Position numbers and translations under genes: made by a program. Shown one piece after another: positions 1,281 to 40,606 of a stretch of 64,000 bases of DNA (position 1 is its first letter; every line of letters begins with the position of its first letter). This stretch comes from Bacteroidota bacterium. Lineage in GTDB: Bacteria > Bacteroidota > Bacteroidia > UBA4408. The stretch spans positions 186,001 through 250,000 of the forward strand of contig CAUJCU010000021.1 in assembly GCA_963169745.1 (NCBI GenBank). The letters run 5' to 3'. A model generated the notes under the pieces. It saw only the letters and a program-made list of their open reading frames with translations. It made no database searches and was not told where the DNA came from.

Positions 1281-1377
1281 TTTTTACGAATGCTTGTAGA
1301 AGCGCATGGGTATATTATGTTAATTACTTTGTTTATACTAAAGTTTAATAACAGCTAAATACAATTTCTTGCTTTGT

Positions 1378-1385: not shown

Positions 1386-1401
1386 AGACTAAGGTGATTT
1401 T

Positions 1402-20533: not shown

Positions 20534-20536
20534 GGT

Positions 20537-21832: not shown

Positions 21833-21851
21833 TACTTCTTTTTTTAAATTG

Positions 21852-23015
21852 TTATGCCCAAAGTTTTATAGAGTCAGAAAAGGTACCTGCTTGTTCTTTA
21901 ATCACTTTAAATTGGCCTGTGTTTTCATGATACTGAAAGTTAATATGCGGAATGCCAGCTTCATCGCATTCTTTCTGCATCTCAGGGCGATCGAGAAGGG
22001 CAGGGTCACAAAAGCTTGCTGCAGAGAATATAATCCCATCGGCACCGCGCTTATTGGCTTGGGCCACCAAACGTTTTCCTTTAGGATTACCTACATCATA
22101 ATAGGCAGATGAAAATTGACTTTGATATAAATAGGCATTCGTTAGTGCTTGTAAAGGATCGTCAGTATTTTCTTCTACATCTCCCAAAATCCATCGTGAG
22201 CCCAGCATAAAGTCATCATCTACAATATAGCAACCGGCCATTTCAATTGATTTTATTAAACCAATAGGTGGCTGCTCACAAAATGAACCCGAAACGACTA
22301 CGCGAATATTATCCATCGGCTCGCCACGATCAGTTTGAATATAATCCAACACTTGTTTTAGTATTTCATTATGCTCTTCAACAGGCATAGCAATACCGGC
22401 ACGTAAAATATGATATGTTTCAACTGCCGATAACCTCCAGGGAAATTCCTGCCGTATATCATAGATAGCTTCAATAAGCCTCCGGTTAATATTATAGAGG
22501 CGAATGGAGTTATTTAAGGAATTAACATCAGCTCTCACTCCGTTAATGTTAAATATATCATCCATTACCTTTTCCATTTCCTGGATATAGAAAACCCCTC
22601 CAATCTTAGGGTCAAAATTTTGCGGATAATCGAAATAGCGTTGAAACTTACCCTTATGTGCCAACTTGTACATACCAGACAAATTACGAATACAGTCGCA
22701 AATTGCTGGAAACAGAAAGCCATCAAAGCCATCTAGGTTTTTATCTAAGGCCATTTCTATTACTCCACGCGGCAAGTGGCATATATACGACTGGTAATAG
22801 GCATCGCCTTTAATAATCTGCTTGCGATCGCCAACACCCATAATACCCACCGGTAGCCCGCTGGAAGCATGAATAACTTCACGAGGAACATAAATGGGTA
22901 AATAACCTACAATAACTCTTTTTTCATTCTGGCTCTTCCAATTTTTGGCATGAGCAAAGTTTAAATCAAACGCAACTTTTTCGCAGTATGTGAGAAGCTC
23001 ATCTATTGATTGCAT
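21852..23015 (-). CDS. bcrC: benzoyl-CoA reductase subunit C (BcrC-like)
   Basis: 387 residues from ATG 23015, matching the ~386 recalled for BcrC. It belongs to the 2-hydroxyacyl-CoA dehydratase/BCR family: VGYLPIYVPREVIHASSGLP at the N-terminus; Cys79 (QSYICHLPRG), Cys106/108 (FPAICDCIRNLSG) and SFCEQPPIG/SFCDPALLDRP as candidate cluster and substrate residues. A longer form from GTG 23036 is possible. However, the predicted -7 element occupies 23036-23043, so transcription would start near 23030 and only the ATG at 23015 would be translated. It is first in the bcrCBA operon, divergent from mobA across a shared FNR-type site. Confidence 0.82.
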   Translation of the reverse strand: MQSIDELLTYCEKVAFDLNFAHAKNWKSQNEKRVIVGYLPIYVPREVIHASSGLPVGIMGVGDRKQIIKGDAYYQSYICHLPRGVIEMALDKNLDGFDGFLFPAICDCIRNLSGMYKLAHKGKFQRYFDYPQNFDPKIGGVFYIQEMEKVMDDIFNINGVRADVNSLNNSIRLYNINRRLIEAIYDIRQEFPWRLSAVETYHILRAGIAMPVEEHNEILKQVLDYIQTDRGEPMDNIRVVVSGSFCEQPPIGLIKSIEMAGCYIVDDDFMLGSRWILGDVEENTDDPLQALTNAYLYQSQFSSAYYDVGNPKGKRLVAQANKRGADGIIFSAASFCDPALLDRPEMQKECDEAGIPHINFQYHENTGQFKVIKEQAGTFSDSIKLWA

Positions 23016-23035
23016 TACTTTATTTTTAGTTATCA

Positions 23036-23043
23036 CAAAATAA
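23036..23043 (-). promoter_or_regulatory. -7 element for bcrCBA (TTATTTTG on minus strand)
   Basis: Read on the minus strand, TTATTTTG matches TAnnTTTG at 7 of 8 positions. Its upstream edge lies 29.5 bp from the centre of the palindrome at 23065-23080, the spacing of a class II (-41.5) activator site. It decides the bcrC start in favour of ATG 23015. Confidence 0.5.
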
Positions 23044-23064: not shown

Positions 23065-23080
23065 TATGATGGTCATCATA
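23065..23080. promoter_or_regulatory. FNR-type operator shared by bcrC and mobA promoters
   Basis: TATGATGGTCATCATA is a perfect 16 bp palindrome (arms TATGATG/CATCATA, 2 bp centre). It matches the FNR box TTGAT-N4-ATCAA at 8 of 10 specified bases (A for the outer T on each side). The same core ATGATG-N2-CATCAT recurs at 30594. It is placed symmetrically between two divergent -7 elements, each ~29.5 bp from its centre, so one dimer could activate both. The Crp/Fnr regulator encoded at 29681-30403 is the obvious candidate protein. Confidence 0.7.
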
Positions 23081-23101: not shown

Positions 23102-23109
23102 TATTTTTG
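23102..23109 (+). promoter_or_regulatory. -7 element for the mobA-hcr operon (TATTTTTG)
   Basis: TATTTTTG matches TAnnTTTG perfectly and begins 29.5 bp from the palindrome centre. It predicts transcription from about 23115 and a short leader before the GTG at 23131. No TTTG -33 box is needed if the FNR-like protein overlaps that position. Confidence 0.6.
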
Positions 23110-23130: not shown

Positions 23131-23739
23131 GTGGAAACTTGCGGACTACTTATTCTTGCAGGAGGAAAATCACAAAGAATGTTTTTCCCTAAGCCTTATT
23201 TACAGTATCAAGGTAAACCCTTTTTTGAGCATATTGCAACGGTATATAAATCTACCAATATTTCTAAAAGTTGTTTAGTTATTAATAGAGATATTACAAC
23301 TCACGAATGGGAATCCTATTATAAAAAGGCTTTGTCTCTTTTTTCTGTTGTTAAAAAAATAGATACCCATCAAGGTCGGTTTCATTCAGTGAAAACCGGA
23401 ATTAATGCATTATCGGAAATGGATTATTGTTTTATTCACAATATTGATAATCCATTTATTGATATGGAAACCATCAATTTTATGTGGCAACACCGTAATA
23501 AATCAGGATACACCGTTCCTGTGTTTCAAGAAAAAAAGGGGCATCCAGTTTTAATATCAAAGCCGCTTATTAAAAGAATATTGGAATTAACGCATCGTGA
23601 TTATAATTTGAAAGAGCTGTTGAAAGAATTTTCGGAACAATTTGTAAGCGCCACACATAAAGGTGTGTTGCTAAATATAAATACCCCTGATGATTACAGA
23701 AAGTTTATACAGAAATATGAAACAAATGAATTGGTATAA
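23131..23739 (+). CDS. MobA-like molybdenum cofactor nucleotidyltransferase
   Basis: 202 residues, GTG start. NTP-transferase fold: LLILAGGKSQRMFFPKPYL is the nucleotide-binding loop with the catalytic Lys, and FIHNIDNPFIDMETI is the metal-binding region. HPVLISKPLIKRIL and LLNINTPDDYRKF match the MobA/MocA group. It attaches CMP or GMP to molybdopterin. Xanthine-oxidase-family enzymes use the cytosine form, so a MocA (CTP) activity is likely. It is first in the operon that leads to 4-hydroxybenzoyl-CoA reductase, which needs this cofactor. Confidence 0.82.
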   Translation: METCGLLILAGGKSQRMFFPKPYLQYQGKPFFEHIATVYKSTNISKSCLVINRDITTHEWESYYKKALSLFSVVKKIDTHQGRFHSVKTGINALSEMDYCFIHNIDNPFIDMETINFMWQHRNKSGYTVPVFQEKKGHPVLISKPLIKRILELTHRDYNLKELLKEFSEQFVSATHKGVLLNINTPDDYRKFIQKYETNELV

Positions 23740-23750
23740 AATTACATTTT

Positions 23751-24551
23751 GTGAAAAGCATTTATGAAAAAATAGTTGAAGCAGGGCAAGAAAATATTGC
23801 TTTCTGTACTATCGTTAACACAAAAGGGAGTACCCCTAGAAAAGTGGGAGCAAAAATGATTGTATATGAAAATGGGAAAATTTTTGGAACAATAGGAGGA
23901 GGCGAACTCGAAAAAGATGTGATTAAAAATGCATTGAATGTAATTAAAGAATGTACACCTAAAATGTATAAACATGATTTGCTGCATCAGCACAACATGT
24001 GTTGTGGAGGTACAGTTGAAATTTTTATTGAACCCATTATGAAAAAAAAGGGACTCTACATTTTTGGAGCAGGACATACGGGCCAAGCGCTGGCAAGTTT
24101 TGCCTCCAATTTAGGATTTATGGTCGTATTGATTGACAGCAGGAAAGAATATATAGACAATTGCATACTGCCGGATGTAAGTAAGTTGAATCTACCCTAT
24201 CAACAAGCCTTGCAGGCACTACCTTTTGACGAAAATACAATGATTTGCATCATGACTCACAGTCATCCCATTGATAGAGATATACTTTTATATTGCTTGA
24301 AGAAACCTTATATCTATTTGGGCATGATAGGAAGCCGAAGAAAAGTAGAGTTGACCAAAAAAATGTTTCTGGAAAACTTAGGCATTTTTCCGGAAGCGTT
24401 AGAACGTGTTGACATGCCCATGGGAATAGATATAGGTGCCGAAGGCCCTGAAGAAATTGCATTAAGCATTATGGCTAAACTAATAAGCGTCAAGAATAAC
24501 ATACAGAGTAATCAAGAAGAAAAAAATAGAGAAAGCAAGTTACTGTACTAA
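23751..24551 (+). CDS. XdhC/CoxI-family molybdenum insertase chaperone
   Basis: 266 residues, GTG start. N-terminal XdhC/CoxI domain (FCTIVNTKGSTPRKVGAKMIV, IGGGELEKDV, HQHNMCCGGTVEIF) and a C-terminal Rossmann domain (YIFGAGHTGQALASFASNLG; GMIGSRRKVELTKKM). These proteins sulfurate and load the molybdenum cofactor into xanthine-oxidase-type enzymes. Its client here should be the hydroxybenzoyl-CoA reductase encoded 0.8 kb downstream. Spacing to mobA is 11 bp and to the SDR gene 8 bp. Confidence 0.88.
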   Translation: MKSIYEKIVEAGQENIAFCTIVNTKGSTPRKVGAKMIVYENGKIFGTIGGGELEKDVIKNALNVIKECTPKMYKHDLLHQHNMCCGGTVEIFIEPIMKKKGLYIFGAGHTGQALASFASNLGFMVVLIDSRKEYIDNCILPDVSKLNLPYQQALQALPFDENTMICIMTHSHPIDRDILLYCLKKPYIYLGMIGSRRKVELTKKMFLENLGIFPEALERVDMPMGIDIGAEGPEEIALSIMAKLISVKNNIQSNQEEKNRESKLLY

Positions 24552-24559
24552 AAAATAAA

Positions 24560-25303
24560 ATGATGACAGAAAAAAGAATAGCCATAGTAACTGGATCGGC
24601 CAAGGGAATAGGAAAAGCTATTGTTAAGAGACTAATTGAAGATAACTATTTTATTATTGCTGTGGACATTGATGACTTCGAAGGAGCAAGGTTATTACAT
24701 GAATTTGGGCAAGAGGAAATCATTTATATTAACTGTGATATAACTGATGAAAAACAGGTTCAGGAACTGTTTCATAGAATGATAAATGCCTATACAAAAT
24801 TAGATTTATTAATTAATAATGCAGGAATTATCAAAGATGATGCAATTTGGAATATGAGCATTGAAAATTTTGATTTAGTTATTGATGTTAACTTAAAAGG
24901 AACGTGGATAATGTGTCGCGAGGCAGCAAAAATTTTTAAGGAGCAGAAAAAGGGGAGGATAGTAAATATCTCCTCGCGAGCATGGCTGGGTAATTTTGGA
25001 CAAAGTAACTATGCTGCATCAAAAGCAGGAGTAGTGGCTCTAACTCGTGTACTTGCTCTTGAACTTGGAAAATACAATGTGTTGGTAAATGCTGTTGCTC
25101 CCGGACTTATTGATACACCACTGACACAAAAATTAGAACAACATGTTTTGAAAAGATTAATTGAAGCGCAACCAACCAAAACTATGGGCAGTACAGACGA
25201 TGTAGCCCATGTGGTGTCCTTTTTGGCGTCAGATCAAACACGCTTTATTACTGGACAAACAATTTATGTTGATGGTGGAAAAAGCATAGGAGCTGGTATA
25301 TAA
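24560..25303 (+). CDS. short-chain dehydrogenase/reductase, FabG-like
   Basis: 247 residues, classical SDR. The cofactor loop is TGSAKGIGKAI. NNAG (LLINNAGIIKD), the catalytic Ser (VNISSRAW), YAASK, and PGLIDTPLT followed by the C-terminal YVDGGKSIGAG are all present. The Asp after beta-2 (AVDIDD) favours NAD(H). It lies between the Mo-maturation genes and hydroxybenzoyl-CoA reductase. It may oxidise a hydroxyacyl-CoA of the lower pathway, such as 3-hydroxypimeloyl-CoA, or act on a peripheral aromatic alcohol. I cannot choose between these. Confidence 0.75.
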   Translation: MMTEKRIAIVTGSAKGIGKAIVKRLIEDNYFIIAVDIDDFEGARLLHEFGQEEIIYINCDITDEKQVQELFHRMINAYTKLDLLINNAGIIKDDAIWNMSIENFDLVIDVNLKGTWIMCREAAKIFKEQKKGRIVNISSRAWLGNFGQSNYAASKAGVVALTRVLALELGKYNVLVNAVAPGLIDTPLTQKLEQHVLKRLIEAQPTKTMGSTDDVAHVVSFLASDQTRFITGQTIYVDGGKSIGAGI

Positions 25304-25323
25304 AATTAAAATGCGAATAGAAG

Positions 25324-28128
25324 ATGAGGCCAATCAATATTAAAATTAATGGAAGAAAGTACAAACTCTTGGTTGATGATCACGAGCTTTTATCTAATGT
25401 TATCCGTAATAAAATAGGACTTACAGGAACCAAGATAGGTTGCGAGCAGGGTAGCTGTGGGGCTTGTACAGTATTGGTAAATGAAAACCCTACTTTGAGT
25501 TGTATAACACCTGCTTTACGATGCAACAATACCGAAATACTTACTATTGAAGCTTTGGCCAAAGACGGAGAACTTCACCACTTACAACAAAAATTTGTAG
25601 AGAAAGGAGCTATTCAATGTGGATTTTGCACTCCAGGCATGGTCATTACAGCACTTGATTTTGTCAATAACAATCCAGATCCTTCTGTTGAAGAAATTAA
25701 GGGAGCACTTTCAGGAAATTTGTGTCGTTGCACCGGATATAAAAAAATTATTGAAGCTGTTGCAGAATTTATAAAAGAATCAAACCAGATAACTGAGGGG
25801 AGTTACAACGAGCAGCAAAAAAATGGGAAAACAAATGAATCGTTTGGCGCTATTGGAAAAGGCAGACCTTATATTGAGGCTGAAAAGAAAGTAAAAGGCA
25901 CAGCAGAATATGCTGATGATATTGCTGTAAGAAATGCTTTACATTGTAAGTTTCTTAGAAGTATCTACCCGCATGCAAAGATCGAAAGTATTGATATTTC
26001 TGAAGCATTAAAATTAGATGGTGTACATTACATTTCTACCGGAAAAGAACTGCCTGTTAAATTCGGAGTGCTCCCAATTTCTCAGGATGAAACGGCTATG
26101 GCTGTTGATAAAGTAAGGTATATTGGTGAAATTGTAGCTGCTGTAGCTGCCGATACAGAGGAGATTGCTGCTGAGGCTTGTAACCGTATTAAGGTCGGGT
26201 ATAAACCAATTAAAGAATTTGTTGAAATTGATGACTCAATAAACGATATTGGTAATTATGAAAAAATTCATGATCATACTAAATTCAACAATAATATACA
26301 TAAGAAAGCAGAGTTGCGTTTTGGCGACCAGCAGCAGGGTTTAAAAAACTCCTTTGCTATCAGTAAAATGTCGTTTACTTTTGAGGGAATTAGCCATGGT
26401 TTTACTGAGCCACATGCTGCAACAGCATGGTGGGATGAAAACGGGCTAACTATAATTACTGCAACGCAAGTACCTCATTACTTGCACCGTGCACTGGCAA
26501 AAGTTATGGAAGTACCTTTAAGTCGTGTACGAGTTATTAAACCATACGTTGGAGGAGGTTTTGGAGGTAAAAGTGATCCTTTCCCTCACGAAGTGATTAT
26601 AGCGCATCTGGCGCGTAAAACAGGTCGTCCAGTACGGGTTCGTTTTTCTAGAGAAGAGGTTTTTCTAACCAATCATGGACGTCATCCTTCTAAAATGACT
26701 GTTGAGATGGGTCTTGCAGAAGACGGAACATTTAATGCTCTGGATGCAGACATAGCTATTGATGGAGGAGCTTATGGTAGTTTTGGTGTGGTTACATCGT
26801 ATTATAATGGAGTGCTGCTTCAGGCGCCATACAAGCTCAGTAATTTTGGGTTTAAAACCTATCGGGTTTATACCAATAAACCTCAATGTGGAGCTATGCG
26901 AGGCCATGGTGCTGTAAATTCACGCTTTGCTGTAGAAACGTTAATTGATGATTTGGCACATCAGTTAAAGATGGATCCGTGTGAAATAAGACTAAAAAAC
27001 TTTTTAGACTCCAATACACTTACTGTAGGCCAATATCGTATTACATCAAACGGCAGCCGCGAATCATTACAGAAGGTTATGGAGCAATCAGAATGGAAAA
27101 GTCGCTTTGGGAAATTAGAATACGGGCACGGCATTGGTGTAGGATGTGGATTTTTTATTAGCGGAAGTGCTTTACCTATCATCTGGAACGAATTGCCTCA
27201 GTCGGTGGTGCATTTGAAAGTTGATTTTGATGGGCGGGTAGTTATTACCTCAGGCGCCAGCGATATTGGACAAGGGAGTGATACGATGTTGGCTATGATT
27301 GTTTCAGAAGTATTAGGAATTAGTATGGATAAAGTGTTTGTGCTTGCAGCCGATACTTTACTTACTCCGGTAGATATGGGAAGTTATTCTAGTCGAGTAA
27401 CTTTCATGGCTGGTAATGCAGCTAAGATGGCTGCAGAAAATTTGAAAAAAGAAATAACAGAGGCTATTGTAAAAAAGAGAGGAATTGCAGAAACAGAGCT
27501 GAATTTCTCTGATAACTGCGTTGTTAGTAATGATAAAGAGGTTAACTTATCATGGATCGAAGCCATTGATATTCTTACAGCAAACCGAGGTGCAGTAAGT
27601 GTTAGCGGAAAATATATATCACCCAAACTGGGAGGCGATTTTAAAGGAGCAGGTGCAGGACTTAGTCCATCATATAGCTTTGGGGCTTGCATTGCCGAAG
27701 TTAAGGTGAATTTGGAAACAGGCTTTGTAAAAGTACTCCATGTGTGGGGGGCACACGATTGTGGTAAGGCAATAAATCCATTGGCTGTTCAGGGACAGCT
27801 GGAGGGTTCGTGGCACATGGGAATAGGTCAGGCTATGTCCGAGCAAATGCGCTATCATAACGGATTGTTGCTAAATAACAATTTTCTGGATTACAGAATA
27901 CCTACTTCTCTCGATACCCCGGATATTCATACCAATATAATTGAAACGAATGACCCAGAAGGACCATTTGGAGCTAAAGAATGTGGTGAAGGTGCTTTAC
28001 ACCCGGTTATGCCGGCTATAGGGAATGCTATTTACAATGCTGTTGGTGTGCGTATTACCAACCTGCCCATAAGTGCTGAGGAAATACTTAAAAAGATGAA
28101 AGAAAAAAATAAATATCAGCAAGTATGA
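25324..28128 (+). CDS. 4-hydroxybenzoyl-CoA reductase, fused small [2Fe-2S] and large Mo subunits
   Basis: 934 residues. Residues 1-155 are the two-cluster small subunit: plant-type [2Fe-2S] Cys40/45/48/60 (CEQGSCGAC) and second cluster Cys99/102/134/136 (CGFC, CRC). A ~25-residue linker leads to the molybdopterin subunit (~175-934) with GGGFGGKSDPFPHE, GGAYGSFG, MRGHGAVNSRFAVE and GPFGAKECGEGALHPV, the last holding the catalytic Glu. In known 4-hydroxybenzoyl-CoA reductases these are separate HcrC and HcrA chains, so the fusion is unusual. It removes the 4-hydroxyl to give benzoyl-CoA. Its TGA overlaps the hcrB start by 4 bp. Alternative: another aromatic or purine hydroxylase. Confidence 0.8.
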   Translation: MRPINIKINGRKYKLLVDDHELLSNVIRNKIGLTGTKIGCEQGSCGACTVLVNENPTLSCITPALRCNNTEILTIEALAKDGELHHLQQKFVEKGAIQCGFCTPGMVITALDFVNNNPDPSVEEIKGALSGNLCRCTGYKKIIEAVAEFIKESNQITEGSYNEQQKNGKTNESFGAIGKGRPYIEAEKKVKGTAEYADDIAVRNALHCKFLRSIYPHAKIESIDISEALKLDGVHYISTGKELPVKFGVLPISQDETAMAVDKVRYIGEIVAAVAADTEEIAAEACNRIKVGYKPIKEFVEIDDSINDIGNYEKIHDHTKFNNNIHKKAELRFGDQQQGLKNSFAISKMSFTFEGISHGFTEPHAATAWWDENGLTIITATQVPHYLHRALAKVMEVPLSRVRVIKPYVGGGFGGKSDPFPHEVIIAHLARKTGRPVRVRFSREEVFLTNHGRHPSKMTVEMGLAEDGTFNALDADIAIDGGAYGSFGVVTSYYNGVLLQAPYKLSNFGFKTYRVYTNKPQCGAMRGHGAVNSRFAVETLIDDLAHQLKMDPCEIRLKNFLDSNTLTVGQYRITSNGSRESLQKVMEQSEWKSRFGKLEYGHGIGVGCGFFISGSALPIIWNELPQSVVHLKVDFDGRVVITSGASDIGQGSDTMLAMIVSEVLGISMDKVFVLAADTLLTPVDMGSYSSRVTFMAGNAAKMAAENLKKEITEAIVKKRGIAETELNFSDNCVVSNDKEVNLSWIEAIDILTANRGAVSVSGKYISPKLGGDFKGAGAGLSPSYSFGACIAEVKVNLETGFVKVLHVWGAHDCGKAINPLAVQGQLEGSWHMGIGQAMSEQMRYHNGLLLNNNFLDYRIPTSLDTPDIHTNIIETNDPEGPFGAKECGEGALHPVMPAIGNAIYNAVGVRITNLPISAEEILKKMKEKNKYQQV

Positions 28129-29060
28129 TACAAAAAGAAAGAACATACTTCCAACCTCATTCTGCTGAAGAGGCTGTTAACATTGCACATAAACATGAAA
28201 ACGAGTCATGCTTTATTGCCGGTGGAACAGATGTAATGGTTAATAAGTTTCAAGGGAATAATGAATTTTCTTGTTTTATTGATATTACCGGTATTTCTGA
28301 AATGAAACAAATTTCGGTACAGGATAATTATTTAAAAATAGGTTCTTTAGTTACACTTGACAACATAACGAAACATACCCAAATAAAAAATAATTTTCCT
28401 TTATTAATACAGGCAGCTAATGCTATAGCCTCTCCTGTTATCAGAAAAACGGCTACTGTTGGGGGTAATTTACTTTGCGAAAACCGCTGTGTATATTACA
28501 ATCAGAGCACCTGGTGGCGTGAAGCTGTTGGACACTGCCTTAAATGCGATGGTGATATATGTATTGCCACTGGAGGTAAAAAAAATTGCTTCTCAAAATT
28601 TGTTTCCGACTTGGCTGTTGCATTGATTTGTATGGATTCCAACATTGAGGTTGTGGAACATGGTGGAAGCTATATTGCTCCATTAGAAAACTTGTATAGC
28701 GGTGATGGTGTAAACCCTCATAAACTAAAAAAATCAACACTAATTAAATATATTCATATTCCCTTGCAGCAAGACTTTCGGTTTGCATTTAAAAAACTGC
28801 GCCAACGCGAAAGTATGGAATTTAGTTCATTAACTACTGCTGTTACAAGAAATAAACACGGCAAAATAAAAATTGTACTTGGAGGTGTTGATCCACGTCC
28901 TGTTGTTGTTGAAGGCACTCATGGCAATAATGAACAAGATTTAATTAAACAAGCTGTAAAGAAAACAAGAATCGTAGATAACGATGTATTCTCACGCCAA
29001 TATCGTAAAGATATGATTAGTGTTTTTCTAAATCAAAGCTTTCAAGAAATTGCTGTTTAA
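28125..29060 (+). CDS. hcrB: 4-hydroxybenzoyl-CoA reductase FAD/[4Fe-4S] subunit (HcrB-like)
   Basis: 311 residues, FAD-binding CO-dehydrogenase-flavoprotein fold: FIAGGTDVMVNK and TATVGGNLL bind FAD. The diagnostic feature is an inserted loop with Cys122, Cys138, Cys146 and Cys155 around CVYYNQSTWWREAVGHC. As I recall, the Thauera enzyme binds its extra [4Fe-4S] cluster at Cys122/138/146/155, an exact match in number and spacing. This insert separates 4-hydroxybenzoyl-CoA reductases, which run backwards with ferredoxin electrons, from xanthine dehydrogenases. It is coupled to the Mo subunit by a 4 bp ATGA overlap. Confidence 0.88.
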   Translation: MIQKERTYFQPHSAEEAVNIAHKHENESCFIAGGTDVMVNKFQGNNEFSCFIDITGISEMKQISVQDNYLKIGSLVTLDNITKHTQIKNNFPLLIQAANAIASPVIRKTATVGGNLLCENRCVYYNQSTWWREAVGHCLKCDGDICIATGGKKNCFSKFVSDLAVALICMDSNIEVVEHGGSYIAPLENLYSGDGVNPHKLKKSTLIKYIHIPLQQDFRFAFKKLRQRESMEFSSLTTAVTRNKHGKIKIVLGGVDPRPVVVEGTHGNNEQDLIKQAVKKTRIVDNDVFSRQYRKDMISVFLNQSFQEIAV

Positions 29061-29113: not shown

Positions 29114-29656
29114 ATGAATCCAATCACAACACTTTACCAGGAACATGCTATTATTGTTGATGCCGTTGAAGTGGCCCGAGAGGCCGAGAAATTAATTGAA
29201 AAGGATAACGAAGCCTATCTTCAAACAATGAAGTTGTTACTTCACTTTTTTAGAGTTTATTCCGATCAATATCATCATCATAAAGAGGAAGAGATTTTAT
29301 TTCCTGAAATGAACAAAAAGAATGAACTGCTTGAAGATGGGGTAGTAAAAGAGATGTTTGAAAATCATGAAGACTTTCGTAACATGATTAATACGATTGA
29401 AAATCATCTCAACACCGGAGAGTATGTAAAAGCGCAACAACAACTTCAAAATTATACAGAAGCTCTGCTTGACCATATTGCAGTTGAAAATGATGAAGTT
29501 TTCCAGATGGCTGAAACCCTTTTTGATGAAAGCGAACTAGAGCGAATATACTTCCGTTTTGAAGATTGCGACCGCGAAATAGGAGAGCAGCAGAAAACTG
29601 ATTTGGTGAATCAGTTAAGAGAAATAAAAGCTACATTAATGTATTCGCAGGCGTAA
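29114..29656 (+). CDS. hemerythrin/HHE-domain protein
   Basis: 180 residues, four-helix bundle with di-iron ligands: LYQEHAIIVDAV, YHHHKEEEILFPEM, FENHEDFRNM and LLDHIAVENDEVF. Such proteins bind O2, NO or iron. As last gene of the hydroxybenzoyl-CoA reductase operon (53 bp after hcrB) it may scavenge oxygen near O2-labile enzymes or pass an oxygen signal. The role is inferred from position. It converges on the Crp/Fnr gene. Confidence 0.82.
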   Translation: MNPITTLYQEHAIIVDAVEVAREAEKLIEKDNEAYLQTMKLLLHFFRVYSDQYHHHKEEEILFPEMNKKNELLEDGVVKEMFENHEDFRNMINTIENHLNTGEYVKAQQQLQNYTEALLDHIAVENDEVFQMAETLFDESELERIYFRFEDCDREIGEQQKTDLVNQLREIKATLMYSQA

Positions 29657-29680
29657 AAAAAGAATGAGTAGAACTCTGTA

Positions 29681-30403
29681 CTAATCGGAAAGATTAGCAA
29701 CTTTGATGAGTTCCTTATTGTCAAGAACTTGAATTCTTTTTCCAACTAAAGCAATAATACGACTTTTATGTAGGTCAGATAAAGCCCGAATAGTTGATTC
29801 TGTTGTCGTACCTGCAATGTTACCAATACTTTCACGAGTAAGAATGGTGTTGATGGTGGTATTATCCTGCTCCAACCCAAAAAATTCTTTGAGCATCAAA
29901 ATAGTTTCAGCAATACGTTCTTTAACTTGTTTTTGAATCATATTTACTGCTTTTTGTTCCGCTTGTTTTAAATCTAAAGAAAGCAAACGAATAATTTGAG
30001 CCGACAATGCCGGGTTGCTGACAATTTGACTCTGATAAGCCGATTTTGGGAAAAAACAGAGTTCTGTATCTTCAATAGCTGTGGCCGATGCATGATACTT
30101 GTCATCACTTAATAAGGCACGATAGCCTATTACACTTCCTTTTTTTGCAAAACGCAGTATCTGTTCTTTTCCTGCGCTTCTAAATTTGTGAACTCTTACT
30201 TTTCCTGAGTATATACAATATAAACCCTGCGGATATTTTCCCTCCTCAAAAATGGTTTCTCCTTTTTTATACAAATGGTGCGTCTTACTTTGTGATAAAA
30301 AACTCAATTCATTATGATCAAGCACACAAAAAATAGAATAACATAGCGATTCACATTTTTCACAAGGTGGAATTCTACTCGATAAGTCAGGAAAAACTTT
30401 CAT
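29681..30403 (-). CDS. Crp/Fnr-family regulator with N-terminal cysteine cluster
   Basis: 240 residues. N-terminal Cys14, Cys17, Cys21 and Cys26 (CEKCESLCYSIFC) precede a cyclic-nucleotide-type beta-roll (about 28-150: KGETIFEEGKYPQGLYCIYSGKVRV). A dimer helix and a winged HTH follow (about 168-232: ESIGNIAGTTTESTIRALSDL). The recognition helix keeps the Glu and Arg of FNR (E-x-x-x-R), fitting the TGAT/ATCA core of the two palindromes flanking the island. The cysteines suggest an O2-sensitive [4Fe-4S] cluster. Predicted role: activates the bcr/hcr/had operons without oxygen. A degenerate TTATTTTG -7 lies at 30464-30471 on the minus strand. Confidence 0.85.
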   Translation of the reverse strand: MKVFPDLSSRIPPCEKCESLCYSIFCVLDHNELSFLSQSKTHHLYKKGETIFEEGKYPQGLYCIYSGKVRVHKFRSAGKEQILRFAKKGSVIGYRALLSDDKYHASATAIEDTELCFFPKSAYQSQIVSNPALSAQIIRLLSLDLKQAEQKAVNMIQKQVKERIAETILMLKEFFGLEQDNTTINTILTRESIGNIAGTTTESTIRALSDLHKSRIIALVGKRIQVLDNKELIKVANLSD

Positions 30404-30593: not shown

Positions 30594-30607
30594 ATGATGA
30601 ACATCAT
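30594..30607. promoter_or_regulatory. FNR-type operator upstream of bcrD operon
   Basis: ATGATGAACATCAT is a perfect palindrome with the same arms as the site at 23065. It lies in the 303 bp spacer (30404-30706) between the Crp/Fnr gene and bcrD. Its centre is 30.5 bp upstream of the -7 element at 30631, fitting class II activation of the bcrD operon. It is ~190 bp from the regulator's own start, so autoregulation is less likely. Nothing else was recognised in this spacer. Confidence 0.7.
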
Positions 30608-30630
30608 AAAATATTAGGCATTTAGGCTGT

Positions 30631-30638
30631 TACTTTAC
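30631..30638 (+). promoter_or_regulatory. weak -7 element for bcrD operon (TACTTTAC)
   Basis: TACTTTAC matches the fixed positions of TAnnTTTG at 4 of 6 (final TG replaced by AC). It is supported mainly by its position relative to the operator. A weak promoter is what a strongly activator-dependent operon would need. Transcription would start near 30643, leaving a ~64 nt leader. Confidence 0.4.
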
Positions 30639-30706: not shown

Positions 30707-31558
30707 ATGCTACAAAATATGGAAGAAAAAACGTACACCATGGGAATTGACGTTGGTTCCAACTTTATTAAGTTGGTGCTGGTTGATTATGATAGTCAAT
30801 CAAAAATTATTGATAAGCATACTGAGAAAATTAGAAAACGAAACCCTACTCAAGTTGCTGATGAGATGATCCAGAATATGCTGAACAAACACAAACTCAA
30901 GTATGAAAACATTGCATATCTTGCCTCAACGGGTGAAGGAGATTTGGTAAAACGCAAACGAGGCCATTTTTATGGAATGACAACTCATGCCAAAGGAGCA
31001 AACTTCTTTTTCCCCGATGGGCGTACTATTGTTGATATGGGTGCCTTGTATGTAAGAGCCATAAAGGTTTCACCAGATGCCCGGGTTGAGGACTATAAAA
31101 TGACCGGGCAATGTGCCTCCGGTTCAGGTCAATTTGTTGAAAATATCTCGCGTTATCTTGGGTTATCTATCGAAGAGGTGGGTGATGTTTCACTCCAATC
31201 AGATACGCCTGAAGTTTCCTCCGGAATTTGTGCTGTACTGGCAGAAACGGATGTCATCAATATGGTATCTCGAGGTATCTCTACACCCAATATTATTAAA
31301 GGTATCCATATTTCAATTGCCAACCGAATTATTAAACTGTTAAGTTCATTAAAGGCCGAGTCACCAATTATTTTAACAGGAGGTATGGCCTTAAACAAAG
31401 GTATGATGCAAGCCATAGAAGAACAATTGGCCGAATCAGGTAAAAAGTTTGATATAAAGACACATCCTGATGCTATTTATGCTGGTGCCATAGGTGCTGC
31501 ATTATGGGGAGGATACCGCCACTTCAAACTAAAAGAAAAACAATCAATGGCTGTATGA
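30707..31558 (+). CDS. bcrD: benzoyl-CoA reductase ATPase subunit D (BcrD/BadG-like)
   Basis: 283 residues, the same length I recall for Thauera BcrD. ASKHA ATPase with GIDVGSNFIKLVLVD, STGEGD, and [4Fe-4S] ligands Cys136 (TGQCASGSGQF) and Cys175 (SSGICAVLAETD). The phosphate-2 motif reads VDMGALYVRAI instead of DIGGQDTKAI, a variation I associate with the BcrD/BadG type. It pairs with BcrA to share one cluster and drive electrons with ATP. It is first gene of a nine-gene operon, separate from bcrCBA. The alternative start ATG 30722 cannot be excluded. Its stop overlaps the ligase start (ATGA). Confidence 0.85.
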   Translation: MLQNMEEKTYTMGIDVGSNFIKLVLVDYDSQSKIIDKHTEKIRKRNPTQVADEMIQNMLNKHKLKYENIAYLASTGEGDLVKRKRGHFYGMTTHAKGANFFFPDGRTIVDMGALYVRAIKVSPDARVEDYKMTGQCASGSGQFVENISRYLGLSIEEVGDVSLQSDTPEVSSGICAVLAETDVINMVSRGISTPNIIKGIHISIANRIIKLLSSLKAESPIILTGGMALNKGMMQAIEEQLAESGKKFDIKTHPDAIYAGAIGAALWGGYRHFKLKEKQSMAV

Positions 31559-33297
31559 TGTTGTATCTTGAATCGGATAAAAAATTAGGCACTGTTGTTC
31601 ACAATATTGCTACGCTGCTAGAAAGAAATTCTATTCTTTTTGCTGATAAAATGATTTATGCCGAAAAGCATAACGGCAATTACAAAGGAATAACTTGGAA
31701 GGACTTTTATAAGAATGTTCAGAATATTGCCGGAAACCTGAAAAGGCATGGATTTGAAAGTGGGGATAAAATGATGGTGTATTCTCCTAATAGGCTCGAA
31801 ATGTTGGAAATGGAAATGGCTGTAATGGCCTCTGGAGGCATCAGCGTTCCTATCTTTGCCTATTTTCATACCGAAACAGCAACCTTGCTTTTTAAACATT
31901 CAGATGCAAGATTTATTGCCGTTGCAGGTGATTTACAGTATAACAGAATAAGACACTTACAACCAGAAAAATTAATTTTGTTTGACAAATTAGAAACATC
32001 GGATAAAAATATTCTCTTTTTTGATGCATTGCTAGCAGATACTCCACAGGCAAAGGATGCCTTGGTTTTTGATGCACCCCCTGATGCTATTTGTCTCAAT
32101 ATGTACACCTCCGGCACTATGGGCACCCCTAAATGTGTACAACTTACACATCAAAATATTCTTTCACAGCAGGCTGCACTTGGGCAAATATGGAATCTTG
32201 ACGAGCATGACCGTTTTCTCTCATATTTGCCGTGGCACCACAGCTTTGGTGGAATTTTTGAACGATTTTCAGCACTTTACAATGGCGCTACGATATACCT
32301 TGAATCCAGCTATGGTAAAGACCCAAAAGAAATTATGACTAACTGGAAATTAATTCAACCAACTTTGTTTTTAAGCGTTCCCAAAGTTTATCAATCGCTT
32401 GTTGATCTAGCTAAATCAGATTCTGAAATTGAAAAACTGTTTTATCATTCAGGATTAAAATTTGTATTTACAGCTGCCGCTCCATTGCCTTCAAACATTT
32501 CAGCTGAATTTGAAAAACGCAATGTTTCCGTAGTCGAAGGATGGGGGCTTACAGAAACCTCTCCGTGCTGTACGCTAACCGATCCGAGTATTAAACGAGA
32601 AAATGGCGTAGTAGGAAAACCAATACCGGGAGTGCGTATTCGCGTTACTGATGATGGTGAAATTGAAGTGAAAGGTCCTCATGTTATGAAAAGTTATTAC
32701 CATAATAATGAAGCCAACAGTACAGCTTTTACACCAGATGGTTGGTACCGTACCGGAGATGTTGGGCAAATTGTAGATTCAGGTTTAAAATTAATTACTC
32801 GTAAGGACAGAATATTTAAACTTACCAATGGCGAAAAAGTTATTCCAACCGAAATGGAAGCATTGATACAAGCAAAATGTCACTATATCACTTTTGCTAT
32901 GATTGTTGGTGAAGGTTCAGAATACCCTGTGGCATTATTATTCCCGAATAAAAAAGCCTTAGATCATCCTAATTATGAACTGTCGCCCGAAGAAGGATGC
33001 TTTTGTCCGAGAAGCCTTAATGAGTTGGGGAAATGCCTGCATGGTTGCTTGCATGACACTAATTGCGGACTGGCACAGAAGTTCTCTAAGATAAAATACG
33101 CCATGGTAATTGACGATGAGTTGAGTATTGAAAACAATACACTCACGCCATCTATGAAAGTGGCTCCCAAGAAAGTAATGGAAGCTTATAAAGCACATAT
33201 CGAAAATTTATATGGAGCTAAGAACAAAATAAGCGAAGAAGTTTACGTAATTAGACTTGATACCGAAGAGAAAATAAACAAAAAAATTGAAATTTAA
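31555..33297 (+). CDS. AMP-forming acyl-CoA ligase with cysteine-rich insert
   Basis: 580 residues from ATG 31555, which overlaps bcrD by 4 bp. ANL-superfamily signatures: MYTSGTMGTPKCVQLTH (P-loop-like A3), EGWGLTETS (A5), GWYRTGDVG (A7), KDRIFKLTNGEKVIP (A8). The C-terminal domain ends with LTPSMKVAPKKV carrying a likely catalytic Lys. It probably activates benzoate or 4-hydroxybenzoate with ATP and CoA, feeding the pathway. Overall it looks closer to long-chain acyl-CoA ligases than to classical benzoate-CoA ligases, so another carboxylate is possible. Odd feature: Cys482, 484, 494, 498 and 504 cluster in a C-terminal-domain insert (CFCPRSLNELGKC, HGC, TNC). Confidence 0.82.
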   Translation: MMLYLESDKKLGTVVHNIATLLERNSILFADKMIYAEKHNGNYKGITWKDFYKNVQNIAGNLKRHGFESGDKMMVYSPNRLEMLEMEMAVMASGGISVPIFAYFHTETATLLFKHSDARFIAVAGDLQYNRIRHLQPEKLILFDKLETSDKNILFFDALLADTPQAKDALVFDAPPDAICLNMYTSGTMGTPKCVQLTHQNILSQQAALGQIWNLDEHDRFLSYLPWHHSFGGIFERFSALYNGATIYLESSYGKDPKEIMTNWKLIQPTLFLSVPKVYQSLVDLAKSDSEIEKLFYHSGLKFVFTAAAPLPSNISAEFEKRNVSVVEGWGLTETSPCCTLTDPSIKRENGVVGKPIPGVRIRVTDDGEIEVKGPHVMKSYYHNNEANSTAFTPDGWYRTGDVGQIVDSGLKLITRKDRIFKLTNGEKVIPTEMEALIQAKCHYITFAMIVGEGSEYPVALLFPNKKALDHPNYELSPEEGCFCPRSLNELGKCLHGCLHDTNCGLAQKFSKIKYAMVIDDELSIENNTLTPSMKVAPKKVMEAYKAHIENLYGAKNKISEEVYVIRLDTEEKINKKIEI

Positions 33298-33299
33298 TT

Positions 33300-34508
33300 A
33301 TGTACGAAATAAAAGCCACACAGCAGTTAAAAAAACTCATGCGTGATTATTTTACGAGTATGAGCAAACCGGTAGCGTGGTGTACTAGTGTTGGTCCTGC
33401 CGAACTGTTACGGTCATTTGGATTTGATGTATATTTTCCTGAAAACCACGGTGCTTTATTAGGGGCAACCCGAACAGCTATGGATTATATCCCTGCTGCT
33501 GTTCAATGCGGATATTCCGGACATGTATGTTCCTACACAACTAGCGATATAGGCGCTTTTCTTAGCGGCAAAACACCTTTGCAGAAACAATACGGAATGG
33601 AAGGTATTCCTAAACCCGATTTGATTGTATATAATACGAATCAATGCCGCGAAGTTCAGGACTGGTTTAACTTTTACGCAAAACACTTTAATTGTCCGGT
33701 TGCTGGTATTCAGCCTCCTCGACATATAGATGAGGTATCAAAAGAAGAAACAGACTTAGTGGTGCAACAGTTTAAAAAGATAATTCCTGCTTGCGAAGAA
33801 GTCAGTAAAAAGAAATTTGATATTGATCGCTTCAGAGAAACTATTAAGCTAAGTAAAGAAGCTACTATGCTTTGGCAACAAGTACTCAAAACAGCAATTG
33901 CATCTCCTGCTCCAATCAGTTTTTTTGATGGTGTTATTCACATGGGGCCAATTGTTGTACTTCGTGGTACGCAGCAAGCTAAAGATTATTACCAGTTGCT
34001 GCTTGATGAGCTTACACAAAACATTATGGATAAGAAAGGAGTTGTAAAAAACGAACAATGTAGAATATTCTGGGAAGGTATGCCTATTTGGGGAAAAATC
34101 AGAATGTTGTCAGACTTGTTTACACAGAATAACAGCGTTGTTGTGGCTTCTACGTATTGCAACAGTTGGATTTTTGACGAGTTTGATGAGCGAAACCCAT
34201 TTGAATCTTCAGCACTTGCATACACTAAAATATTTATCAACAGAAGCGAAAAAGCAAAGATGCAAATGCTTAAAAGCTGGATGGACGAGTATCACTGTGA
34301 TGGAATTGTTTTTCATGATTCTAAAACTTGTCATAATAACTCCAATGCGAAATTTGGGATGCCTCAGCGCATGAAAGAAGAAACCGGAATTCCGTATTTA
34401 ATTGTAGAGGGCGATTTATGCGATTTGCGTTTTTTCTCAGAAGGGCAAAGTATAACTAAAATAGAAACATTCATAGAGCAGATTGAAAGCTCAAAAATTA
34501 AAATTTAA
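33300..34508 (+). CDS. additional BcrB/HgdB-family protein (2-hydroxyacyl-CoA dehydratase-like)
   Basis: 402 residues of the same family as BcrB and BcrC. Candidate cluster cysteines are Cys70 and Cys77 (QCGYSGHVCSYTTSD) and Cys116 (YNTNQCREVQDWF). Other blocks are IFWEGMPIWGKIRML, ASTYCNSWIFDEF and FHDSKTCHNNS. It starts 2 bp after the ligase stop and is followed 4 bp later by the PanE::ATPase fusion. It is a third member beyond the two subunits needed for a reductase. It could be an alternative reductase subunit, half of a dehydratase whose activator is the fusion, or a scaffold. Family certain, role open. Confidence 0.8.
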   Translation: MYEIKATQQLKKLMRDYFTSMSKPVAWCTSVGPAELLRSFGFDVYFPENHGALLGATRTAMDYIPAAVQCGYSGHVCSYTTSDIGAFLSGKTPLQKQYGMEGIPKPDLIVYNTNQCREVQDWFNFYAKHFNCPVAGIQPPRHIDEVSKEETDLVVQQFKKIIPACEEVSKKKFDIDRFRETIKLSKEATMLWQQVLKTAIASPAPISFFDGVIHMGPIVVLRGTQQAKDYYQLLLDELTQNIMDKKGVVKNEQCRIFWEGMPIWGKIRMLSDLFTQNNSVVVASTYCNSWIFDEFDERNPFESSALAYTKIFINRSEKAKMQMLKSWMDEYHCDGIVFHDSKTCHNNSNAKFGMPQRMKEETGIPYLIVEGDLCDLRFFSEGQSITKIETFIEQIESSKIKI

Positions 34509-34512
34509 GAAT

Positions 34513-36336
34513 ATGGAAAGCCATGACAGAAAAAAAACAGGCATCATAGGTTTAGGACCTGTTGGTATGATTCTGGCTGTACATCTGCGCGAAGCCGGAC
34601 ATGATGTTATCTTATGTGATAATGATAAAGTAAAAATAAATCAAATTAGAAATGAAGGAATTCGTCTCGAAAACGTAATTCAAAAAACAGCTAAGTTTGA
34701 AAATATTGCTTCCTCATCAAAAGAATTACTCGAGCAAAACCCTGATTTTGTATTTATGTCCGTAAAAACATATCAAGTTGAAAGTATATTAAATGAAATT
34801 CCTGCTGATAATACTTCTGTTTTTATTTGCGCTCAGAACGGAATAGATCCTGAACTGATGGTAGCTAACAAATTAGGAGAACAACGAACTATGCGTATGG
34901 TAATTAACTTTGCAGGTAATCTTACTGCTGCAAATTGTGCCAAAGTAACTTTTTTTAATGCTCCTAATTATATTGCCTGCTTAGATGATCATAAAAGAAA
35001 TTATGCCGAAGAAATAGCCGCAGCGCTCAATGCTGTTCAACTCGATACAAAGGCTATCAGCTCTTTTGAGCTCACAAAGTCAACCTGGAAAAAAACCATT
35101 TTAAATTCATCATTAAGCGCCTTGTGCGGTATTGGAAAGTTCACTATGGCCGAAGCTATGGTTTTTCCGGACACTATTGAATTAATAGAACAAATTATTC
35201 AGGAAGCTATTGAAGTGGCTGAAGCTGAAAAAATTCGCTTCCCTGACGATTTTGTAAGAAACTGTTTACGCTATCTTAAAAAAGGGGGTAACCACTTTCC
35301 GTCTCTTGCTGGAGACTTAATTAACAATCGCCCTACCGAGATAGACTATATGAATGGGAAGATTGTAGAATACGGTCGTAAACATTATATCAGAACACCA
35401 TTAAATCTTTCTATGGTGAATATGGTAAAAGCAATGACACATAAAAATATGCTTACCCAGTTCTCTGAAAAGGCTAGCGGTTCAACAAAATTAAGGCTCC
35501 AGTTAAAAGCAAATTGTCAACCTAAAGGCAATTGTTTTCTTGGAATAGACTTAGGTTCAGCATACACCAAGTTCACGGTAATTGATGAAACAAAAAATGT
35601 GGTCTTCCGCTATATTTTAAAAACACTAAATCGCGATAAAATTGCATCTAAACATATTATTACAGCCATTCAGGAAGAATTTCCTATCAAATACAGTTGT
35701 GCTACCGGTTACGGACGAAAAAATTTTATAGATGCCGATATAGTCAAAACTGAAATTAACTGCGCTGCAATGGGTGTTAATGAGTTATTATATGGGGCTA
35801 AAAACATTCTCGACATTGGTGGAGAAGATATCAAAATGATTCATTGCGACAAAGAAGGAAAGGTTGAAAATTTTTATCTTAATGATAAATGCGCTGCCGG
35901 CACGGGCGCATTTCTTACTGAAATTGCTGAAAGAGCCGGAATTGATATCAAAGAGATGAGCCAACTGGCCTTGCAGTCAGAATACAATCAAGAGCTGAAT
36001 AGCTTTTGTACTGTTTTCGCAAAAACCGAAATTATGAAATGGATTTTTGAAGGACAACCTATTGAAAACCTAGCTAAAGGCATTTACCTCTCTATCGGTA
36101 ATCGTATCGCAAAAATGCGTATGGATCATTCTTTGCCGGTAGTAATGATTGGTGGTGTAATAGCATACCATCCTTATTTGAAAACCTTGCTTGAACAGAA
36201 ACTTAATAAAGAAGTGATGGTGCTTAACAATTCACAGCATATTGTTTCATTGGGAGCTGCACTAATTGCCAGAGAATATGTTCTAACACATAAAAACTTA
36301 TCAGAAAACGATTTAAAACAAGAAGTAACGACATAA
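34513..36336 (+). CDS. fusion: ketopantoate-reductase-like domain + BadF/BcrA-type ATPase
   Basis: 607 residues from ATG 34513 (an earlier in-frame ATG lies inside the upstream gene). Residues 1-315 are a complete 2-dehydropantoate-2-reductase-like unit: NADP loop GLGPVG (13-18), CAQNG (106-110), a Lys in STWKKTILN (193/194), and NRPTEIDYMNG (272-282). Residues ~340-607 are a BadF/HgdC-type ATPase: GIDLGSAYTKF, ATGYGRKNF, DIGGEDIKMI, and [4Fe-4S] ligands Cys460 (DKCAAGTGAF) and Cys499 (SFCTVFAKTE). I know no characterised protein with this pair. It may couple NAD(P)H binding to an ATP-driven activator for the 33300 protein. That is inference. Confidence 0.85.
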   Translation: MESHDRKKTGIIGLGPVGMILAVHLREAGHDVILCDNDKVKINQIRNEGIRLENVIQKTAKFENIASSSKELLEQNPDFVFMSVKTYQVESILNEIPADNTSVFICAQNGIDPELMVANKLGEQRTMRMVINFAGNLTAANCAKVTFFNAPNYIACLDDHKRNYAEEIAAALNAVQLDTKAISSFELTKSTWKKTILNSSLSALCGIGKFTMAEAMVFPDTIELIEQIIQEAIEVAEAEKIRFPDDFVRNCLRYLKKGGNHFPSLAGDLINNRPTEIDYMNGKIVEYGRKHYIRTPLNLSMVNMVKAMTHKNMLTQFSEKASGSTKLRLQLKANCQPKGNCFLGIDLGSAYTKFTVIDETKNVVFRYILKTLNRDKIASKHIITAIQEEFPIKYSCATGYGRKNFIDADIVKTEINCAAMGVNELLYGAKNILDIGGEDIKMIHCDKEGKVENFYLNDKCAAGTGAFLTEIAERAGIDIKEMSQLALQSEYNQELNSFCTVFAKTEIMKWIFEGQPIENLAKGIYLSIGNRIAKMRMDHSLPVVMIGGVIAYHPYLKTLLEQKLNKEVMVLNNSQHIVSLGAALIAREYVLTHKNLSENDLKQEVTT

Positions 36337-37602
36337 ATGACTAAAGGATTTTTTCAGAAAAAAAAGGGGACAGGAATAATTTTTAATGATATATTTTTGA
36401 TAAATGGTATGCGTACTCCATTTGGAAAATTTTGTGGTACTTTATCACAAGTGTCACCAACCGACTTGGGTATTTATGCCGCACAAGCAGCACTCAAAAA
36501 ATGCCATGTAGATGGGGCTGAAATTGATCAGGTAATTACAGCTAATATTGGCCAAAGTTCTTGTGATGCCTATTTTTTACCACGCCATATTTCACTTTTC
36601 TCAGGGGTGCCTATTGAGGTTCCTTCATTAATGGTGCAGCGTATTTGTGGGTCGGGTTTTGAAACAATAGTAAGTGCTTCTGAACAGATTGCTTTGAATA
36701 AGGCTGCCTCTGTGTTGTGTGTAGGGGCAGAAAATATGTCGCTGTCGCCAACCGTATCTTTTGGGAATAGAATGGGTTATCCCTTAGGTCGGCCTGTATT
36801 TAAAGATATGCTATGGGAGGCATTAGATGACACTGCAGCCGGTTACCCAATGGGATTTACCGCAGAAAATGTGGCAAAAAAACATAAAATAACCCGTCAG
36901 GATTGTGATGAATATGCTTTGTCTTCGTTTCAGAGAGCTTTAAATGCTGCTTCACAAGGCTATTTTAAAGAAGAAATTGCAGAAGTAAGTCCGATAACTT
37001 TTGAAAGAGATGGATTAAAACCCCGCAAAACCCGTTTCTCAGGTGGAGCAAAAATTCTAACTACAGATGAACAGGTTAGAGAAACCTCTATGCAAGCTTT
37101 AGCTAAACTTCCAACGGTGTTTTCTGAAGTGGGTGTGCTAACTGCCGGTAATTGTAGTGGAATTGTTGACGGGGCTGGAGCAGCAGTGGTAGCAAATAAA
37201 TCCTTTATTCAGGAAAAAAAGATAATACCATTAACTAAAATTATTGCTGCTACAAGTTGCGGTATAGATCCTAAAATTATGGGATTGGCACCGGTTCCTG
37301 CTATAAACTTGCTTCTCGAACTTACCGGAATAAAATTAGATGACATTGGACTTTTTGAAATAAATGAAGCGTTTTCTGCTCAAATTATAGGATGTGAGAG
37401 AGAACTAAACATCGATAGAAACAAACTAAATGTAAATGGTGGTGCTATTGCTATAGGACATCCATTAGCCGCTACTGGTATTCGCCTTTCAATAACACTT
37501 TCACACCTAATGAACCAGAAAAAAATTAAATATGGAATTGCTTCTGCTTGTATTGGTGGAGGACAAGCTACTGCCATTCTATTTGAAAACACAAACATAT
37601 AG
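36337..37602 (+). CDS. thiolase (acetyl-CoA acyltransferase)
   Basis: 421 residues. Nucleophile Cys in VQRICGSGFETIV, NEAFSAQ, GGAIAIGHPLAATG with the catalytic His, and the second Cys in SACIGGGQA: all thiolase residues intact. The start ATG abuts the upstream stop. The predicted step is cleavage of 3-oxopimeloyl-CoA to glutaryl-CoA and acetyl-CoA, following Oah and a hydroxyacyl-CoA dehydrogenase. A short lysine-rich N-terminal extension (TKGFFQKKKGTG) precedes the usual start. Acetoacetyl-CoA cleavage at the end of the pathway is also possible. Confidence 0.88.
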   Translation: MTKGFFQKKKGTGIIFNDIFLINGMRTPFGKFCGTLSQVSPTDLGIYAAQAALKKCHVDGAEIDQVITANIGQSSCDAYFLPRHISLFSGVPIEVPSLMVQRICGSGFETIVSASEQIALNKAASVLCVGAENMSLSPTVSFGNRMGYPLGRPVFKDMLWEALDDTAAGYPMGFTAENVAKKHKITRQDCDEYALSSFQRALNAASQGYFKEEIAEVSPITFERDGLKPRKTRFSGGAKILTTDEQVRETSMQALAKLPTVFSEVGVLTAGNCSGIVDGAGAAVVANKSFIQEKKIIPLTKIIAATSCGIDPKIMGLAPVPAINLLLELTGIKLDDIGLFEINEAFSAQIIGCERELNIDRNKLNVNGGAIAIGHPLAATGIRLSITLSHLMNQKKIKYGIASACIGGGQATAILFENTNI

Positions 37603-37644
37603 TTAAAGAAGCTATAATGAGAACCAATAAAAATAATAAATACA

Positions 37645-38712: not shown

Positions 38713-38716
38713 TAAA

Positions 38717-39817: not shown

Positions 39818-39820
39818 GCA

Positions 39821-40594: not shown

Positions 40595-40606
40595 TCAATA
40601 TTTAAA

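Follow-up and report, generated by a model that had tools for sequence, protein, structure and literature searches.

The window, a 64,000-nucleotide stretch of a Bacteroidota genome (contig CAUJCU010000021.1), carries on its minus strand, at 29681..30403, a gene with an ATG start that encodes a Crp/Fnr regulator of 240 aa. The original prediction had picked out this open reading frame for its cysteines at positions 14, 17, 21 and 26 and proposed it as an oxygen switch for aromatic degradation; we confirm it as a real gene and refer to it as fnr. Its end lies 24 bp from the end of a convergent hemerythrin-domain gene (29114..29656, plus strand; Pfam), and it is divergent from bcrD, which begins at 30707. 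The proposed aromatic-degradation context is right in outline, as judged from NCBIfam and Pfam matches of the cluster genes. The benzoyl-CoA reductase genes bcrC, bcrB and bcrA occupy 19118..23036 on the minus strand. On the plus strand, a mobA-like gene, xdhC, an SDR gene, hcrCA and hcrB (23131..29060) form a 4-hydroxybenzoyl-CoA reductase-like group, and a third block (30707..42619) comprises bcrD and genes for a CoA ligase, a BcrB-like protein, a PanE-activase fusion, a thiolase, Had, Oah, a dienoyl-CoA hydratase-like protein and a 3-hydroxyacyl-CoA dehydrogenase/hydratase. BcrB, BcrC, BcrD, Had and Oah pass the NCBIfam equivalog cut-offs; for BcrA (436 against a cut-off of 578), the dienoyl-CoA hydratase and the Hcr subunits, the best NCBIfam matches are those named, at scores below the cut-offs.

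Three of these proteins have a noteworthy make-up. In the open reading frame at 34483..36336, a 2-dehydropantoate 2-reductase-type domain (TIGR00745) and an acyl-CoA dehydratase activase (TIGR00241), both above their cut-offs, form an unusual fusion. The protein encoded at 33300..34508 is a second BcrB/HadB-like protein that scores best as a 2-hydroxyisocaproyl-CoA dehydratase alpha subunit, below every cut-off. The hcrCA gene (25324..28128) encodes the gamma and alpha subunits of 4-hydroxybenzoyl-CoA reductase fused in one protein of 934 aa, and most matches in our Hcr search of 395 genomes align with this fusion over nearly its full length. As the original prediction had also stated, no benzoyl-CoA-sensing repressor is visible: all 18 other protein genes scanned with Pfam or NCBIfam in the block 19118-42619 encode enzymes, activases, maturation factors or hemerythrin, with no second transcription factor among them.

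Pfam, a structure model (mean pLDDT 85) and structure comparison agree on the fold of the window protein, a cNMP-type β-roll with a Crp HTH domain. Its cysteines are at positions 14, 17, 21, 26, 63 and 116, and the first four do lie N-terminal to the β-roll (Pfam cNMP_binding, 45-126; model strands from residue 41). We aligned the window protein with 33 Bacteroidia relatives that are 41 to 70% identical to it. C14, C17 and C116 are present in all 34 sequences, C63 in 33 and C26 in 31, and C21 is found in the window protein alone. Cys116, which was absent from the original prediction, aligns with Cys122 of E. coli FNR (L160), just as C14 and C17 align with C20 and C23; the remaining E. coli cysteine, C29, falls opposite Ser23, between C21 and C26. 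C20, C23, C29 and C122 are described as the proven ligands of the E. coli cluster (PMC5398030). The likely [4Fe-4S] ligands are hence C14, C17, C26 and C116, the most economical set that the alignment offers, which provides the three N-terminal cysteines plus one β-roll cysteine of an FNR protein with a CX2CX8C spacing that differs from the CX2CX5C of E. coli FNR. Thus, the FNR-type set of four cysteines is supported once C116 is included, and the combination C14/17/21/26 is rejected because C21 occurs in only 1 of 34 sequences and had been over-read as a ligand.

The relatives that lack C26 have Gly (L055), Ser (L056) or, in the case of the own-genome paralogue L003, His at this position. L056 and L003 carry a CXXCXXC motif instead, so the third ligand may shift in these proteins. 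The closest solved structure is that of 2gau, a Crp/Fnr protein of Porphyromonas gingivalis (phmmer 2e-34; structure comparison Z 27.2). It has no Cys at the positions of C26, C63 and C116 in a phmmer alignment that stops short of C14/C17, which argues that the sensor cysteines are a property of the present clade and not of all Bacteroidota homologues. L004, a weak homologue in the own genome, also lacks the N-terminal CXXC.

Comparing the window protein with FNR of A. fischeri and E. coli reveals a common fold (5e44, Z 22.7), the three aligned cluster cysteines and, as had been predicted, the Glu and Arg of the recognition helix: E202 and R206 align with E209 and R213 of E. coli FNR and are kept in 34/34 sequences. 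The overall identity to E. coli FNR is 28-29%, and the protein scores 96.2 bits with the NCBIfam FNR model NF008365, far below its cut-off of 228. The position of E. coli FNR Ser212 is taken by Ile205. From known FNR-DNA contacts, one might guess that this Ser212 to Ile change is paired with a change of the box from TTGAT to ATGAY.

That box emerged from an unbiased scan of the DNA upstream of 23 orthologue genes, in which we counted every perfect palindrome whose 5-bp arms are 0-10 bp apart. ATGAT-N4-ATCAT ranked at the top (8/23 orthologues); offset versions of this site and ATGAC-N4-GTCAT (4/23) came next. HcpR, another FNR-like family, likewise has box arms of the 5-N4-5 type. Its published motifs, those of hcp regulons, are TTGACnnnnGTCAA and GTAACnnnnGTTAC (PMC1274295); neither of these HcpR/HcpR2 arms is among the top palindromes upstream of the 23 orthologues. 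The exact form is present twice between genes of the window: one FNR-type box, ATGATGAACATCAT, lies at 30594..30607 between fnr (minus) and bcrD (plus), and another, ATGATGGTCATCAT, at 23066..23079 in the bcrC/mobA intergenic region, where it is common to two divergent promoters. The sequence ATGATGNNCATCAT occurs in the own genome only at 23066 and 30594. Their central G..C (TGATGNNCATCA, 7 against 2 for the control) is not common to the orthologues' own boxes and was discarded as a feature of the window boxes.

The number of ATGAYN4RTCAT sites in the own genome is not in excess (23, with 23 for a reversed control pattern), and WTGAT-N4-ATCAW shows no clear excess genome-wide either (43 against 30). 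What carries the signal is where the box stands with respect to genes and the -7 element. Whereas 11 of the 23 own-genome sites are intergenic, only 1/23 of the control sites is (Fisher p 0.0017), and 4 of the 23 are packed into 7.5 kb (23066 to 30607; Poisson 4e-7); two of these four (24240 and 30092) lie within coding sequence, without a -7 element. Neither the classical TTGAT-N4-ATCAA with one mismatch (10 in the window, 6.2 expected) nor the CRP site (2, 1.8 expected) gave a signal. Box density is higher in the 23 orthologue genomes than in 20 genomes without a close homologue (9.1 vs 5.3 per Mb, p 0.00015). The box/control ratio for the same genomes gave p 0.08, and we set this comparison aside, as the control pattern varies widely.

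The reported -7 consensus of Bacteroides promoters is TANNTTTGY (PMC12632263), which we scored as TANNTTTG with one mismatch allowed. In 13 of 15 orthologue fnr promoters, such an element begins exactly 22 bp past the box (binomial 1.6e-24). Of 15 own-genome boxes, counted in the direction of a gene, 6 have it as well (binomial 1.4e-7; the other 9 are without it), and at any other offset the element is found in no more than 3 of 30 box directions. The box centre thus lies 29 bp before the -7 element, at a predicted position of about -41.5, that of class II activation, as in AcpR/bzd. The 23066 box has a perfect -7 element, TATTTTTG, 22 bp away on the plus strand (23102..23109), directed towards mobA-xdhC-SDR-hcrCA-hcrB-hemerythrin, and at the same distance on the minus strand a -7-like element with one mismatch, TTATTTTG (minus-strand letters; 23036..23043), directed towards bcrC-bcrB-bcrA. 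This predicted promoter overlaps the annotated GTG start of bcrC at 23036, so that bcrC probably starts at the internal ATG at 23013-23015. The transcription starts predicted for the two directions are near 23114 (plus) and 23031 (minus). On the bcrD side of the 30594 box, TTACTTTA (30630..30637, plus strand), again 22 bp after the box, has two mismatches to TANNTTTG and places the predicted transcription start near 30642; the fnr side of this box has no -7 element at 22 bp.

This architecture is conserved over the aromatic promoters of other Bacteroidia. We compared nine divergent bcrC/mobA intergenic regions (the window, L068, L161, L164, L167, L168, L172, L175 and L179). In seven, a single exact box is followed 22 bp away, whichever way it is read, by a -7 element with no more than one mismatch. 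L068 shows this two-way arrangement with one mismatch in the box, which brings the count to 8/9, and L172 is without it. The seven exact regions span five families (f1, f21, f6, f4 and f37), and in the six other than the window fnr does not adjoin the cluster. Twenty hcr clusters of other Bacteroidia were drawn on for this comparison. Of 21 hcr operons in all, 12 have an exact box no more than 300 bp from the first gene that was recognised, compared with a mean of 0.06 and a maximum of 2 in shuffles; the distance was measured from hcrCA in 8/21 operons, where no earlier operon gene was recognised. The nine operons without an exact box within 300 bp are L068, L163, L165, L170, L171, L172, L173, L177 and L178. 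A bidirectional Fnr/Dnr box has a described precedent in the denitrification genes of Dinoroseobacter (PMC5398030).

The box is also found well beyond the aromatic genes. Intergenic boxes of the own genome precede ccoNO (NCBIfam cut-offs reached), a CCP_MauG cytochrome c peroxidase (ccp) operon, a second hemerythrin gene, a COX1-type oxidase operon, an acyl-CoA synthetase-like gene (CoA-binding/Succ_CoA_lig), a tryptophanase/tyrosine phenol-lyase family gene (L033 1581..2966, in the promoter), pyruvate kinase (pyk), a multihaem cytochrome-like gene and a secreted-protein gene. A -7 element at 22 bp accompanies the boxes of ccp, the COX1 operon, the acyl-CoA synthetase and L087 and both directions of the 23066 box; the ccoNO and pyk boxes have none at that distance. 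We counted the composite of box, 22 bp and -7 element in the first 100 of 395 genomes. The median count is 11 in the 27 genomes with a close homologue and 2 in the other 73 (p 3e-11; sums for the control, 24 and 39); these counts are uncorrected for kinship, and the 73 may include genomes with more distant Fnr proteins.

The L013 orthologue adjoins narGHJI, along with genes for a cytochrome c and a NarK-type transporter (named by eye and tblastn). Among 18 further loci (L065-L082), narGHJI lies directly upstream of fnr in L078, a NarK gene is present in L077 and L079, and a convergent hemerythrin gene stands beside fnr in five (L067, L068, L069, L072 and L073). Only L068 (G050) matches the window order bcrA-B-C / mobA-xdhC-SDR-hcrCA-hcrB-hemerythrin-fnr, and the right-hand bcrD block was not found within the stretch examined there. 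Aromatic genes beside fnr are thus the exception; hemerythrin or nitrate genes accompany it at least as often. The box upstream of ccoNO and ccp and the presence of two paralogues with similar cysteines, which could use these boxes too, point the same way, so the proposal of a dedicated local regulator of the aromatic genes is not supported, and we reject this as the only role of the protein.

Hemerythrin-domain genes adjoin two Fnr paralogues in the own genome, in the window (29114..29656) and at L002 (2308..2856). At L002, an FNR-type box precedes the hemerythrin gene and separates it from the regulator gene, and in three genus mates a box lies just past the end of the L002-type gene. The narGHJI genes of the own genome are beside the paralogue L003, and no exact box was found near them in this stretch (G000:C10, about 294900-303850; L084 and L003). 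In L013, a gene resembling tryptophanase/tyrosine phenol-lyase (by eye) lies directly upstream of fnr (776..2161). An enzyme of this type, which also has a boxed gene in the own genome, could supply the aromatic pathway with phenol.

The own genome (2.99 Mb, 24 contigs) encodes two close paralogues of the window protein, L002 (45% identity) and L003 (43%), plus two weak ones. No homologue in genus mates exceeds 49%, and the best in family mates outside the genus is one of 28%; orthologues (51 to 72%) occur in 23 further genomes among the 395 sampled from the class (hand count). A maximum-likelihood tree puts the window protein into a clade of 12 rows (100/99), the others of which come from six other families (those of L012 and L013 taken from their twins L037 and L041), apart from L002 and the genus mates (100/100). 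The Hcr large subunit, found in 51/395 genomes, is absent from genus and family mates in the same way. At 65% identity or more, it occurs in 17/24 orthologue genomes, the own included, vs 31/371 others (hand count, uncorrected for kinship). Since both show the same pattern of presence, fnr and the aromatic genes were probably acquired together. The case rests on their absence from genus and family mates and not on G+C content, which does not clearly point to a foreign source (cluster 0.372, right flank 0.373, left flank 0.337).

Taken together, the FNR-type cysteines, the class II boxes at bcr and hcr and the conservation of this arrangement in other families make an FNR-type switch on the aromatic genes well supported at the level of sequence. 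We propose that the window protein is an FNR-type [4Fe-4S] activator that acts at -41.5 boxes and places bcr, hcr and bcrD under anaerobic control within a wider regulon, and we assign this explanation as a whole a probability of roughly 0.7. Without oxygen, a [4Fe-4S] cluster on C14, C17, C26 and C116 would keep the regulator dimeric. The dimer would bind ATGAY-N4-RTCAT boxes near -41.5 and recruit RNA polymerase at the TANNTTTG -7 element, so that the single 23066 box, working both ways, would switch on bcrCBA as well as the mobA-hcr operon, while the 30594 box would switch on the bcrD operon. Oxygen would destroy the cluster and turn the oxygen-sensitive pathway off. The regulator would be part of a wider anaerobic or microaerobic regulon and would probably share its boxes with the paralogue L002 (G000:C10:233078). 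Benzoyl-CoA reductase is oxygen-sensitive and costly in ATP, which would make it physiologically sensible to place bcr and hcr under a class II FNR switch. A Bacteroidia bin (koll-22, MAG 18) in a nitrate-reducing benzene culture is reported to express enzymes of benzoyl-CoA degradation (PMC8099898), which fits the proposed physiology.

L002 may, however, do more than share these boxes. It has the same C-X2-C-X8-C spacing, a β-roll Cys and a very similar recognition helix, and genus mates without the window gene, whose only Fnr is of the L002 type, still carry 23 to 35 boxes, so that the paralogue may be the main binder. The box between L002 and its hemerythrin gene supports the same idea. L002 would then be a genus-wide FNR that mainly reads the boxes of the aromatic cluster, and the window gene a hitch-hiking extra copy acquired with that cluster; the absence of both the gene and hcr from genus and family mates speaks for this. 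However, the window gene is intact, fnr stands beside hcr in G050 as well, and the fnr promoters of orthologues in several families themselves carry the box with its -7 element, which argues against L002 as the main reader. We therefore regard this explanation as possible, and hold it tentatively.

Nitric oxide or other nitrogen oxides could be sensed in place of oxygen, as by a Dnr/NnrR-like protein, with aromatic use coupled to nitrate respiration; the narGHJI or NarK genes beside four orthologues (L013, L078, L077 and L079) and beside the paralogue L003 are compatible with this, and Dnr boxes are reported to be able to equal Anr boxes (PMC5398030). The sensor cysteines are nevertheless conserved as in FNR, and in the account given for Dinoroseobacter, FnrL alone of four regulators has such cysteines (PMC5398030), which makes a nitrogen oxide signal unlikely. 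The cysteines might also hold another ligand such as zinc or haem or form a thiol redox switch. Haem binding is reported for PgRsp, another Bacteroidota Crp/Fnr protein (PMC6955866), and C63, present in 33/34 sequences, has no counterpart in E. coli FNR. As three of the four presumed ligands match established FNR ligands in the alignment, we consider this quite improbable.

The proposed [4Fe-4S] activator shares with FNR the box arms of 5-N4-5 and the class II position, which is here predicted from the -7 element, but differs in the box itself (ATGAY-N4-RTCAT here, TTGAT-N4-ATCAA in FNR). Two proteobacterial regulators offer a functional parallel. In Rhodopseudomonas palustris, the FNR-type regulator AadR, which the original prediction had named as a precedent, controls the anaerobic use of aromatic acids. 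AcpR of Azoarcus sp. CIB is described as an FNR-type activator of the benzoyl-CoA pathway that acts on the bzd promoter at -41.5 (PMC6678401); AcpR is paired with the benzoyl-CoA repressor BzdR, whereas none was seen in the window cluster. In the Bacteroidota, Crp/Fnr homologues of Flavobacteriales and Saprospiraceae have been assigned to carbon sensing through MalR (PMC8510549). Our literature search, which reached few subscription journals, recognised no description of the box or of an Fe-S oxygen sensor of the present clade.

We think it rather probable that the Bacteroidota have an oxygen regulon of their own, in which an FNR clade with CX2CX8C and a further Cys would act on ATGAY-N4-RTCAT exactly 22 bp before the unusual -7 element of this phylum and the box driving bcrCBA and hcr would be kept even without a linked regulator. 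The aromatic pathway is no rarity in Bacteroidia, as 48/395 sampled genomes carry a close Hcr large subunit (at least 65% identity; hand count). FNR-type oxygen control of anaerobic aromatic degradation is known from Proteobacteria; the same logic appears here in Bacteroidota, where sensor spacing, box and core promoter all differ. If true, oxygen control of benzoyl-CoA reduction would have been built here with a box and core promoter unlike those of proteobacterial FNR-type regulators, and the defined box and promoter grammar would make the oxygen regulon of Bacteroidota directly testable and callable from genomes.
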